DNA of 64,000 nucleotides. Source: Kineosporia babensis (GTDB lineage: Bacteria > Actinomycetota > Actinomycetes > Actinomycetales > Kineosporiaceae). Below the pieces are notes generated by a model, which did no database searches, was not told where the DNA came from, and worked only from the letters and a program-made list of their open reading frames with translations. Shown here piece after piece: positions 38,545-42,232 of this stretch; position 1 is the first letter of the stretch; every line of letters starts with the position of its first letter. The translations under genes were made by a program, and so were the position numbers. The DNA lies in assembly GCF_021129305.1 (NCBI RefSeq), contig NZ_JAJOMB010000020.1, forward strand, positions 124,001-188,000, written 5' to 3'.

Positions 38545-38627
38545 GGAAGCTGGCGCCAGTGGTGGCGAACCTGTCTCGAAAACAGGGCCGGGCAGTGCGC
38601 CCGAGGGTTCGACTCCTTCAGCTTCCG
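38545..38627 (+). tRNA. tRNA-Ser (CGA)
   Basis: An 83-nt class II tRNA. Acceptor GGAAGCT pairs with AGCTTCC plus discriminator G. The anticodon stem CCTGT/ACAGG has loop CTCGAAA (anticodon CGA). A long variable arm CGGGC...GCCCG and a GGTTCGACT T-arm follow. Folding is complete by eye. Confidence 0.88.
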
Positions 38628-38630
38628 CGC

Positions 38631-38795
38631 AGGGCCTGTCCTGTGGATCATGGCCGTAGCGAGGAGGTGCCCGGGGCGTCGGCTGGGCGTGGCCGGTGGG
38701 GCCCCTCGCAATGGTTTTGCGTGGGGCCACGCCGGACGCGTCCAGACGGCGTCCCGGGTGCCCCGCAGTAGGCAAAGATCCACAGGACAGGCCCT
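38631..38795. mobile_element. 165-bp MITE-like palindromic element
   Basis: Perfect 19-bp terminal inverted repeats AGGGCCTGTCCTGTGGATC (38631-38649) and its complement (38777-38795). The interior is itself an imperfect palindrome (for example GGCGTGGCC/GGGGCCCCTCGCA against TGCGTGGGGCCACGCC). It has no coding capacity and sits between the Ser and Tyr tRNA genes. This fits a non-autonomous miniature inverted-repeat transposable element; a target duplication is not obvious. Confidence 0.75.
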
Positions 38796-38806
38796 AGTCC
38801 CGACCC

Positions 38807-38890
38807 GCGGGTGCACTGGGCATGTGGTTGAGCCCAACGGCCTGTAGAGCCGCCGCCTCGGCTGTGGGGGTTCGACTCCCTCCGCCCGCA
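38807..38890 (+). tRNA. tRNA-Tyr (GTA), divergent sequence
   Basis: An 84-nt class II tRNA. Acceptor GCGGGTG pairs with CGCCCGC (one G-T pair), discriminator A. The anticodon loop CTGTAGA gives GTA. A long variable arm (CCGCCTCGGCTGTGG) and a GGGGTTCGACTCCC T-arm follow. Position 8 is C instead of the usual T and the top anticodon-stem pair is A-C, so it differs from standard actinobacterial tRNA-Tyr. Confidence 0.8.
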
Positions 38891-38900
38891 CGTCACCCTT

Positions 38901-38969
38901 TCCGGCTGGTGCAATGGCAGCACGACGGGCTCTGAACCCGTTGATCGAGGTTCGAGTCCTCGGCCGGAA
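38901..38969 (+). tRNA. tRNA-Gln (CTG), short
   Basis: A 69-nt tRNA. Acceptor TCCGGCT pairs with GGCCGGA (one T-G pair). The anticodon stem ACGGG/CCCGT has loop CTCTGAA (anticodon CTG), and the T-arm is GAGGTTCGAGTCCTC. The D-arm is short (TGC...GCA, 3 bp), which makes the gene a few bases shorter than usual. Confidence 0.8.
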
Positions 38970-38981
38970 GCGATCCATCAG

Positions 38982-39055
38982 GCCCCCATGGCGCAGCTGG
39001 AGAGCGCGTCTCGCTACGAACGAGAAGGCCGGCGGTTCGAATCCGTCTGGGGGCA
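38982..39055 (+). tRNA. tRNA-Arg (ACG)
   Basis: A 74-nt tRNA. Acceptor GCCCCCA/TGGGGGC plus A, anticodon stem TCTCG/CGAGA with loop CTACGAA (anticodon ACG), and T-arm GGCGGTTCGAATCCGTC. It ends 1 bp before the stop codon of the convergent nucleoside hydrolase gene. Confidence 0.9.
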
Positions 39056-39056
39056 C

Positions 39057-40013: not shown

Positions 40014-40142
40014 CGGGGCAGCCTAGGGGATCCGGCCTCGGGAATGCTGGACGGCTTCGGTTTCCTGACCTACCCTCGATCGAAGTCCGATTTACCCCTT
40101 TTATGTCGGGCTCTTCCCTGAAGTCGAGCTGGAGGTTCTGCG

Positions 40143-40205
40143 ATGAAGCGCATCATCGAGCGTCTCACCCGTAAGACCATGCCGGGCCGCTACTCCTGGC
40201 ACTGA
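40143..40205 (+). CDS. putative P450-modified RiPP precursor peptide (20 aa)
   Basis: ATG 40143 has a textbook GGAGG (40131-40135) 7 bp upstream. The 20-residue product is MKRIIERLTRKTMPGRYSWH: a basic amphipathic leader-like helix, a Pro-Gly break, then aromatic C-terminal RYSWH. The stop codon touches the open frame of the cytochrome P450 that follows. Known minimal biarylitide precursors are pentapeptides of the form MxYx(H/W) encoded beside one P450 that cross-links the aromatic side chains. Here the terminal R-Y-x-W-H has the same flavour but with a leader in front. Function as a modified peptide is inferred; a translational leader for the P450 is the main alternative. Confidence 0.68.
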   Translation: MKRIIERLTRKTMPGRYSWH

Positions 40206-41479
40206 TCCGATCCCGCGCACGGGAGGCAGCCGCCTCCCGTGCGCTCGATCCAGCCGAATCCGGCCTCAGCTGGCGTGCTTTCACCTCCGCCTACAACACC
40301 GACCGCCTCGCCTTCCTGAGCACGCTGCCCAGCCGGGCGCCGGTGGTGCGGATGGCCGCCAACCTGGTGTTCGTCAGCGACCCGGACCTGATCGAAACCA
40401 TGTTCCGGCGCACGAACACCGACTTCCAGATGACCTTGAACCGGCGGATGGAGTCGGAATCCGCCGCCCGCGGCGAAGCTGCCCTGGACGCCTGGATGCT
40501 GGCCCGCCGGCGCTCGTCCTCCGTTCTGCACACCGCAGCCAACCCGACTATGGACGAGGAACTCACCGAACACGTTCGGGCGTGGGTCAGGGTCGGCGAA
40601 CCCACCGATCTGGTGGGCGATCTCAGTCGCCTCAACCTGCGCTCCACCGCCCGGCTGGTGACCGGGACCTCCGATCCGGCCCTGGAAGAGGCCACCCTCG
40701 CCCTGCTGTCCCCGCTCACCGAGGTGGTGGATCAGGGCACCCGACTACGCGGCGTCCTCGCTCTGCTGACCCGGCGCCACCGGCATGCCCGGAGCCGGGA
40801 CACTCTGCTGCAGAACCAGATCCAGGCCGTCGCACACCCCGACTCGCTGGTGGGTGAACTCGCCCGGGCCGGCGTCGAGCCTCAGGTAGTCACCAACTTC
40901 GCGGTGGCCATGCTCCTGGCCGGCTCGGTGGTTCCCGGTGCAGCCGGCGCCTGGGTGCTGGCCATGCTCGCCGCCCACCCGCAGTGGCAGGAACGGGCCC
41001 GCACCGACGAAACCGCCCGCACCTGGCTGATCAACGAGACGCTACGCCTGTACCCGCCCACCTGGCTGATCAGCCGGATGGTGGCCCAGGACGGGATCTA
41101 CGCCGGCTGGCGACTGCGCGCGGGCGACGAACTGGTGCTCTCGCCCTATGTGAGCCACCGCGATGCGCAGGTCTTCCCCGATCCGGAAGAGTTCCGGCCC
41201 GAGCGCTGGAACGGCCTGCACCCCAGGATCAACGAGTACTTCCCGTTCGGAGCGGGCGCCCGGCGTTGCGTCGGCGCCGAACTCTCGCTGGCCCGGCTGG
41301 ACCATCTGGTGCGCGAGGTGCTTCAGGCCGGGACGGTCGAGGGCCCCGCACCGACCGGGATGTCCACCACCATCACCCTGGTTCCGCAGAACCTCCGCCT
41401 GCGGTTCCGCAGCACAAAGGGCGGTCTACCGGGCCAGGGCGACCAGTTCCGCCCGGGTCCGGGCCCCGGCCTTGCGTAA
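40202..41479 (+). CDS. cytochrome P450, probable tailoring enzyme of the adjacent peptide; start codon unresolved
   Basis: The heme motif is FGAGARRCVG and the K-helix ExxR is NETLRL, with FRPERW between them. The I-helix reads LLAGSVVPGAAG, so the usual acid-Thr pair is absent, as in some phenol-coupling P450s. No ATG, GTG or TTG exists between the in-frame stop at 40172 and GTG 40334. Yet that stretch has coding-type third positions and reads like a P450 N-terminus (SWRAFTSAYNTDRLAFLSTLPSRAPVVRM). I extend to CTG 40202, which overlaps the precursor stop; from there the Cys is residue 356 and the Glu of ExxR 279. The conservative alternative is ATG 40343 (378 aa). The last 54 bp overlap the convergent LuxR gene. 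Confidence 0.85.
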   Translation: MIRSRAREAAASRALDPAESGLSWRAFTSAYNTDRLAFLSTLPSRAPVVRMAANLVFVSDPDLIETMFRRTNTDFQMTLNRRMESESAARGEAALDAWMLARRRSSSVLHTAANPTMDEELTEHVRAWVRVGEPTDLVGDLSRLNLRSTARLVTGTSDPALEEATLALLSPLTEVVDQGTRLRGVLALLTRRHRHARSRDTLLQNQIQAVAHPDSLVGELARAGVEPQVVTNFAVAMLLAGSVVPGAAGAWVLAMLAAHPQWQERARTDETARTWLINETLRLYPPTWLISRMVAQDGIYAGWRLRAGDELVLSPYVSHRDAQVFPDPEEFRPERWNGLHPRINEYFPFGAGARRCVGAELSLARLDHLVREVLQAGTVEGPAPTGMSTTITLVPQNLRLRFRSTKGGLPGQGDQFRPGPGPGLA

Positions 41480-42232
41480 CAGGTTCGAGACGTGGAACTT
41501 GACCGTGTTCTCGCTGATCCCGAGCTCTTTGGCGATCTCCTGGTTGCGCCCGCCGCCGACCAGCAGCCGCAGCACTTCCTGCTCGCGCGGGCTCAGGTCC
41601 ACGCTCTCGCCCAGCGGCAACGAGGGCGAGGGCGGGTCGAGCGGGATCACGATGCTCAGGTTGGAGCCCCAGCCCGGGGTGGAGGAGACGTCCAGGTGAC
41701 CGCTCAGTGCGGTCACCTTCTCGGCGATCGGGCGCAGCGCGTCGTCGTGCCCGGTGAGTTCGCCCCGGCCGTCGTCGCGCACGTGGATCAGCAGGTTCAG
41801 CCCGTCGCAGTCCCAGTGAATGCGCACCCGCTGGGCTTCTCCGGCATCGACCAGGGCCAGGACCGCAGTACGCACGATCGCCCGGGCCGAGTGCGCCACC
41901 TCCCCCGGCAGCGCCCGGCCGGTCGAGGGCGGCTCGACGAACTGCACGTCCAGATCGCCGAACCTAACCAGCGGCCGCAGGTCGTTCTTCAGCCGGGCGA
42001 AGGCCCCGACCACCGGTTCCAGCACGGCCGCCCGCACCTGGTCGGTCTGGGTGCGCAGCTGCACCAGGGCCGAGGCGGCCAGGTCGATCGCCATCGTGCG
42101 GGCCGCCCGGTCGTCCAGGTGGCCGGAGCGCAGCACGGCGAGCAGGGATTCCAGCGTCACGGCGTGCTGCTCACCCAGTTCCGCGAGCAGCCGGTTGTTC
42201 TCGGCGCCCTGGCGGCGGGAGGCTTCGGTCAT
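41426..42232 (-). CDS. LuxR-type regulator with histidine-kinase-like ATPase domain
   Basis: A 268-aa protein without a receiver domain. The N-terminal half is helical. Residues of about 115-195 resemble a HATPase fold (ARAIVRTAVLALVDAG as N-box, VRDDGRGE as G1, STPGWGSNLSIVIPL as the final strand), with no phospho-acceptor His block. The C-terminus is a LuxR/NarL helix-turn-helix (LSPREQEVLRLLVGGGRNQEIAKELGISENTVKFHVSNLLRKAG, about 205-248). It probably senses a ligand or nucleotide and acts on the palindrome 27 bp upstream of its own start, facing hxlB. Its 3' end overlaps the P450 gene by 54 bp. Confidence 0.86.
   Translation of the reverse strand: MTEASRRQGAENNRLLAELGEQHAVTLESLLAVLRSGHLDDRAARTMAIDLAASALVQLRTQTDQVRAAVLEPVVGAFARLKNDLRPLVRFGDLDVQFVEPPSTGRALPGEVAHSARAIVRTAVLALVDAGEAQRVRIHWDCDGLNLLIHVRDDGRGELTGHDDALRPIAEKVTALSGHLDVSSTPGWGSNLSIVIPLDPPSPSLPLGESVDLSPREQEVLRLLVGGGRNQEIAKELGISENTVKFHVSNLLRKAGARTRAELVALAR

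Follow-up and report, generated by a model that had tools for sequence, protein, structure and literature searches.

A conserved 20-codon peptide gene with an aromatic end beside a cytochrome P450 in Kineosporia: a putative minimal cross-linking RiPP locus

RiPPs with aromatic cross-links made by cytochrome P450s go under the broad name of cyptides in the portions of two reports drawn on here (PMC12299652, PMC12352619). Tyr-Trp bonds of several kinds are described among them in the excerpted text of three papers (PMC13383641, PMC13250620, PMC12299652), which name rubrin, lapparbin and roseovertin, and also micitide, as relatives; lapparbin and rubrin contain such Tyr-Trp bonds (excerpt of PMC13383641). 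Biarylitides, as far as the excerpts of PMC13417212 go, are made from a five-residue precursor, MxYxY/H, and have been mined as frames of 5-8 residues, and atropopeptides are characterized in part of PMC11450843 by a KSLK leader motif and a Trp at core position 2, within an xWxxxx core. The P450 ApyO couples the i and i+2 aromatics of Tyr-x-Tyr near the C-terminus, and a variant in which the first Tyr is changed to Trp gives a Trp N to Tyr C bond (PMC13192836, in the passages available). Here we describe a unit in Kineosporia that resembles each of these systems in some respects and departs from the defining features of several.

In a 64-kb stretch of Kineosporia babensis DNA (the window, by which we mean the whole stretch that was analysed), a 20-codon frame on the forward strand, 40143-40205, encodes MKRIIERLTRKTMPGRYSWH and ends in TGA. 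The features of the unit are as follows.

40131..40135, + strand: Shine-Dalgarno sequence GGAGG, 7 nt upstream of the peptide ATG (G005, a second species of the genus, has AAGGAG at the equivalent position)
40143..40205, + strand: precursor peptide gene, 20 codons plus TGA, from its translation; orthologue at L009 1409-1471
40143..40187, + strand: putative leader, residues 1-15, a basic helix-like stretch followed by MPG, the split between leader and core being suggested by the sequence
40191..40202, + strand: putative core Tyr17-Ser18-Trp19-His20, with Tyr17 and Trp19 as the proposed cross-linked pair; PGRYSWH is invariant in two species
40215..40244, + strand: hairpin with a 13-bp stem and a 4-nt loop, inside the P450 frame and directly 3' of the peptide stop, from folding z-scores
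40202..41479, + strand: cytochrome P450, 425 aa if CTG 40202 is the presumed start; I-helix AGSVVPG, without acid and Thr

A preliminary description of this DNA had reported a 20-codon gene with a GGAGG site, a leader-like basic stretch and an aromatic C-terminus, whose stop codon touches the frame of a P450 with an I-helix lacking the acid-Thr pair, and all of this was borne out. Frame, site and translation are as described; the peptide TGA overlaps the P450 frame, which lies in the -1 frame with respect to the peptide, runs open from 40175 to a stop ending at 41479 (+), contains ETLR and FPFGAGARRCVG and matches Pfam p450 at 5.7e-28; and the I-helix reads AGSVVPG, compared to AGHETTA (eight), AGHETAA (one) or AGHESTS (one) in the 10 ordinary P450s of our tree. 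On the two strands of the window, 21 frames that begin with ATG and encode 10-45 residues have a Shine-Dalgarno-like site, and the precursor is the only one of them with two close aromatics (His counted) in its last five residues. No NCBIfam family matched the peptide up to E 1, and a reading of the window frames revealed neither a protease nor a transporter nor a tailoring gene linked to the unit. Three tRNA genes (Ser, Gln, Arg) precede the peptide-P450 unit by 1.1 to 1.6 kb, at 38545-39056. At the other end, the P450 frame extends about 23 codons beyond the end of its orthologue (41411-41479), overlapping the 3' end of an opposite-strand LuxR-like gene (41426-42232).

A P450 search at E 1e-40 was positive in two of six genus genomes, the window's own and G005. 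The G005 P450, which is 64% identical to that of the window, is preceded by MKQLIARLTRRSMPGRYSWH and a stop codon, also 20 residues long (L009 1409-1471). The last seven residues, PGRYSWH, are identical in both species despite four base changes, with Ser kept across TCC and AGC, and 10 of the 15 leader residues are kept; across the 20 peptide codons dN is 0.19 and dS 0.53, values resting on just 13 changes. When the 64-kb window was compared by blastn with G005 stretches of 14.0 and 13.2 kb surrounding its copy of the unit, the match was confined to 40143-41381, indicating that the peptide and P450 genes have been kept together in unrelated neighbourhoods. The unit itself is known from two species, the window's own included (2 of 13 family genomes, and 2 of 297 and 2 of 238 order genomes in overlapping draws with six and seven candidates scored per genome, respectively), so direct orthology rests on one pair. 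A phylum-wide search for the pattern PGRYxWH in 396 genomes, the second species not among them, returned the window itself only, while a class search with a second profile returned 2 of 197 genomes, the window's own and G786. A genome-contig search with the single P450 gave five weak P450s and was blind to the G005 unit, because G005 lacks the six 8-residue patterns of that search, and plasmid records gave no match at 1e-20.

Short upstream frames with aromatic ends also accompany more distant P450s. A class-wide search of 394 genomes, with four candidates scored per genome, found nine with a match, including the window's own, and the eight other P450s have 31-38% identity. Short frames lie upstream of six of these eight and end in PYIYY (three), PYSYY (two) or GRYHWATPTG (one); none was counted for L020 and L022, and L022 is labelled precursor-less though a 12-residue frame, MPGFGLPYAQFW, sits about 320 nt before its P450 frame. 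A wider search in another family, with a profile built from the P450s of the window, G005 and L023, gave 80 matches in 73 of 297 genomes. Among the 50 matches that we read (out of the first 51 of the 80), 42 are preceded by a short frame whose end is aromatic, a call made by eye where two or more of the last 12 residues are W/Y/F (30 of 30 returned loci and 12 of 20 fetched); L026, L045, L048 and L055 are the same places as L023, L017, L016 and L019. Sixteen of the 42 are of cittilin type, and the other ends are GRYHW/GRYWWFH, ASYIWH/ASYAWV, GKYPYWPYHGG, GRYxIYRLR (GRYIIYRLR), GAYxxYW and similar, and PYTSWS. The Y-x-W of the window core is common to L026, L027, L028, L031 and L037, and the precursors beside the nearest P450s have about 20-30 residues, assuming internal starts. 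The precursor types of L027, L036, L039, L043 and L037 matched no NCBIfam model up to E 1. When six precursors, among them cittilin-type ones, were aligned, Met1 and Tyr17 proved to be the only invariant positions, and the case for common leader descent beyond the genus is therefore weak.

To set this pairing against chance, we used the motif [GASPT][RKAPS]Y.{1,2}[WY], sought in the last 15 residues of 15-70-residue frames within 480 nt around the P450 start. This motif, which was written after the relatives had been seen and by design excludes most cittilin ends, was present on the sense strand in 24 of 25 members of the P450 clade described below (L059 was missed) and on the antisense strand in 1 of 25, and its rate in shuffles (40 each) was 0.5% (0.005). 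Other P450 loci had it in 0 of 10 ordinary and 1 of 18 cittilin-type cases. That a short frame with such an aromatic end stands here by more than chance is thus confirmed by its being the only such frame of 21, by the second species and by the motif beside distant relatives. The preliminary description had proposed a two-gene P450-RiPP locus and had suggested looking for conserved short frames before P450 homologues and comparing their C-termini; such frames were found in G005 and, as a motif, in distant kin, and the conserved short frame beside the P450 orthologue supports the proposal. The contrary outcome that it had named, loss of the frame or of its aromatic residues, did not occur, because both are conserved beside that orthologue.

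In a maximum-likelihood tree of 53 P450s, the window P450 falls in a clade of 25 (support 99/100) that takes in all non-cittilin precursor types entered in the tree, with 18 cittilin-type P450s and 10 labelled precursor-less outside it. The window and G005 P450s join L031 and L037 (ASYAWV, ASYIWH) at 96/94, a join that the program flags as possibly a long-branch one. In a rebuilt tree of 35 rows, from which L031, L037 and three long rows had been removed and in which the cittilin rows were thinned to 5, the 23 members left form a group of their own at 100/99, within which the window P450 has no resolved place. The heme pattern or length filter dropped L054, L056, L057, L003, L004 and L007, the first three of which all have aromatic-tailed peptides; L002, L006, L010-L014 and L020 were left out.

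The clade also differs at the I-helix: none of its 25 members has an intact acid-Thr pair, which all 18 cittilin-type rows retain as ETT. Acid and Thr are both gone in the window, L009 and L026-L037, the acid alone in L039-L042, L044, L047 and L051, and the Thr alone in L038, L043, L059 and L062. Without the acid-alcohol pair, coupling is favoured over the insertion of oxygen. A broken pair together with aromatic-tailed precursors (25/25 in the clade) offers a simple handle for finding cross-linking P450s. We can only tentatively, and with considerable doubt about the whole, extend this to a joint picture in which the 25 P450s would form a separate cross-linker line beside BytO, CitB and TrpB (the trees contain no sequence of these three or of ApyO), with several undescribed precursor classes (YxWH, GRYxW, GKYxYWPYHGG, GRYxIYRLR, GAYxxYW) and with a window P450 translated from CTG at the stop, through the hairpin. 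Nam 2023, Liu 2024 and He 2023 may already list some of these clades among their classes.

Cittilin loci share with the window unit a leader followed by a four-residue aromatic C-terminal core and one P450, a hairpin behind the precursor gene (in four of four cittilin-type places folded) and, in the L018 leader, the RLTRK stretch of the window leader. They have, however, 27 residues and YIYY or YSYY cores compared to 20 residues and YSWH in the window, and NCBIfam NF038373, with a cut-off of 34, matches precursors of the L018 and L050 types at 59.5 and 55.2 bits but not the window peptide. Cittilin-type P450s, represented by those rows that our searches fetched and not by CitB of Myxococcus itself, form a clade separate from the window P450 in two trees and keep the ETT that it lacks. 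The shared RLTRK had first suggested a cittilin, a reading that we gave up in view of the NCBIfam and tree results. In NCBIfam, the window P450 matched ApyO best (1.7e-37), yet its 129 bits are far under the cut-off of 525, and two cittilin-type P450s, L016 and L018, reach higher scores on the same model (156 and 165 bits), so we see no special ApyO kinship. The likeness to ApyO, as described in the passages at hand, lies in the i/i+2 aromatics near the C-terminus that we propose for the window peptide; by way of comparison with aminopyruvatide, no MNIO, B12-rSAM or methyltransferase was recognised by eye among the frames at 33-48 kb. With atropopeptides the unit shares a two-gene locus, a precursor of 10-40 residues and an aromatic C-terminus, but the window precursor carries neither the KSLK leader motif nor the xWxxxx core. 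Cyptides in the broad sense have, like the window, a short aromatic precursor beside one P450, and judged on gene content the unit appears to be a new branch of these P450-made aromatic cross-linked RiPPs. MpoB, with YPW, is reportedly another P450 of this kind. The kind of pathway is already known; what appears new is the branch, together with the change of the I-helix across the clade and the odd start of the P450.

That odd start arises at the junction of the two genes, where the P450 frame has no ATG, GTG or TTG in the window ahead of GTG 40343. Between the window and G005, the P450 codons ahead of this GTG are conserved as protein (residues 16-47, dN 0.09, dS 0.65), which makes GTG 40343 too late and places the P450 start upstream; residues 1-15, the hairpin stretch, are unconserved as protein (dN 0.96, dS 0.40). 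The simplest start is probably CTG 40202, overlapping the peptide stop as CTGA, and both species have CACTGATC at this presumed start region. G005 has a further GTG, 14 nt beyond the peptide stop. A programmed frameshift fusing peptide and P450 was also considered, and no slippery site was seen by eye in either species. Units of this kind are readily overlooked, because the peptide gene is so small and because gene calling restricted to ATG, GTG and TTG starts yields a P450 that is 47 residues too short.

The hairpin behind the peptide gene has a z-score of -5.4 over 63 nt and -4.9 over 70 nt in the window, and G005 has a hairpin of different sequence at the equivalent place (z -3.0 and -2.4). 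Folding of the region behind the precursor gene covered 25 places and gave z <= -2 additionally in L026, L027, L031, L039, L040, L047, L016, L018, L049 and L052, values between -1.4 and -1.8 in L028, L037 and L042, and a hairpin not above chance in L029, L030, L032, L034, L036, L038, L043, L044, L059 and L062. In the window no T run follows the hairpin 3', and a comparison with Rfam gave a single match far under the gathering score, which we took as chance.

Taken together, these findings give good support to a leader-core RiPP precursor with a putative P450 cross-linker. The best explanation of the whole, which we consider likely, is a minimal RiPP pathway in which the P450 would couple Tyr17 to Trp19, followed by proteolytic release. 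The 20-residue precursor would be made on the ribosome, its basic N-terminal part (about MKRIIERLTRK) would dock it on the P450 encoded by the next frame, and the C-terminal Tyr-Ser-Trp-His would reach the heme. The P450, without its acid-alcohol pair, would then oxidise the rings and join Tyr17 with Trp19, at i and i+2, through a biaryl bond of the C-C or C-N type; the product would be 2.016 Da lighter, and a host protease would cut near Gly15/Arg16 to release a small cyclic peptide. The predicted [M+H]+ ions are 590.236 for YSWH minus 2H and 746.337 for RYSWH minus 2H. By its motif and by analogy with described systems, a bond joining Tyr17 and Trp19 is the likeliest, and His20, also present in L037, may take part. 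The hairpin that follows the peptide stop probably reduces the amount of P450 made compared to that of the precursor. A compact Tyr-x-Trp cyclase of this kind would be a useful biocatalyst.

The same pathway would lead to a bicyclic, cittilin-like tetrapeptide if the P450 made two bonds, such as one between Tyr17 and Trp19 and another to His20. The four-residue core does carry three aromatic rings, and the L037 core is likewise Y-x-W-H; we nonetheless regard two bonds as unlikely, given that His is absent at that position in L031 YAWV, L026 YHWATPTG and L027 YHWAW and that cittilin-type P450s fall in another clade. The P450 might instead carry out a different chemistry on the same peptide, such as hydroxylation, nitration or formation of a Tyr-His link; RufO, which is close to a cross-linking P450, nitrates Tyr in a pentapeptide according to portions of two papers (PMC12186263, PMC13417212). 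The absent acid-Thr pair argues against ordinary hydroxylation, however, the kin share Y-x-W and not Y-x-H, and no nitric oxide synthase was recognised by eye among the frames at 33-48 kb, which together make this reading improbable.

That the short frame encodes a regulatory leader peptide, which by attenuation at the hairpin would only control a P450 acting on another substrate, is in our view very improbable. A strong hairpin directly behind the peptide stop is what such a reading would build on, but no T run comes after it, conservation lies at the peptide end and not in a single-codon run, L029, L030, L032, L034 and L036 keep aromatic ends with a hairpin not above chance, and the antisense and shuffle controls of the motif test also speak against it. 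As for kinship with biarylitides, the preliminary description had taken the locus for a possible undescribed branch of that family, and the unit does have one P450 adjoining a tiny gene and, in Y-S-W-H, an end resembling Y-x-H/W, a Y-x-[HWY]-like motif. A biarylitide locus with an extended precursor is nevertheless a reading to which we give almost no credence: the window and G005 precursors have 20 residues with a leader, 10 of whose 15 residues are kept in G005, where biarylitides have five (5-8 as mined), and the nearest P450s pair with longer precursors. The gene pattern M[KR]YWH was found in 0 of 150 genomes. A weaker point is that no biarylitide P450 was named among the 60 of 364 matched PDB chains listed, several of which are called just 'cytochrome P450'. 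Precursor length, together with the precursors found beside kin P450s, led us to give up the biarylitide tie. An undescribed branch fits our findings, and a full-text search for GRYSWH, RYSWH, MPGRYSW, GRYHW, KMGGRY and GRYxW (outside figures and supplements) found no report.

Several relatives show features of their own. In L029, L030 and L032-L036, the precursors end in G[RK]Y[IP]YWPY..., the P450 frame lies close behind the stop and the hairpin is not above chance in the five members folded; this clade may be an undescribed class. Precursors of the P450 clade made up of L039-L042, L044, L047 and L051 end in GRYxIYRLR, and here the I-helix acid is lost and the Thr kept. In L074, a cittilin-type precursor, PYTYY runs on into NQCRSRSA with no stop. 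At L023 1305-1391 (the L026 place), the precursor has ATPTG after GRYHW, so a short follower would need removal.
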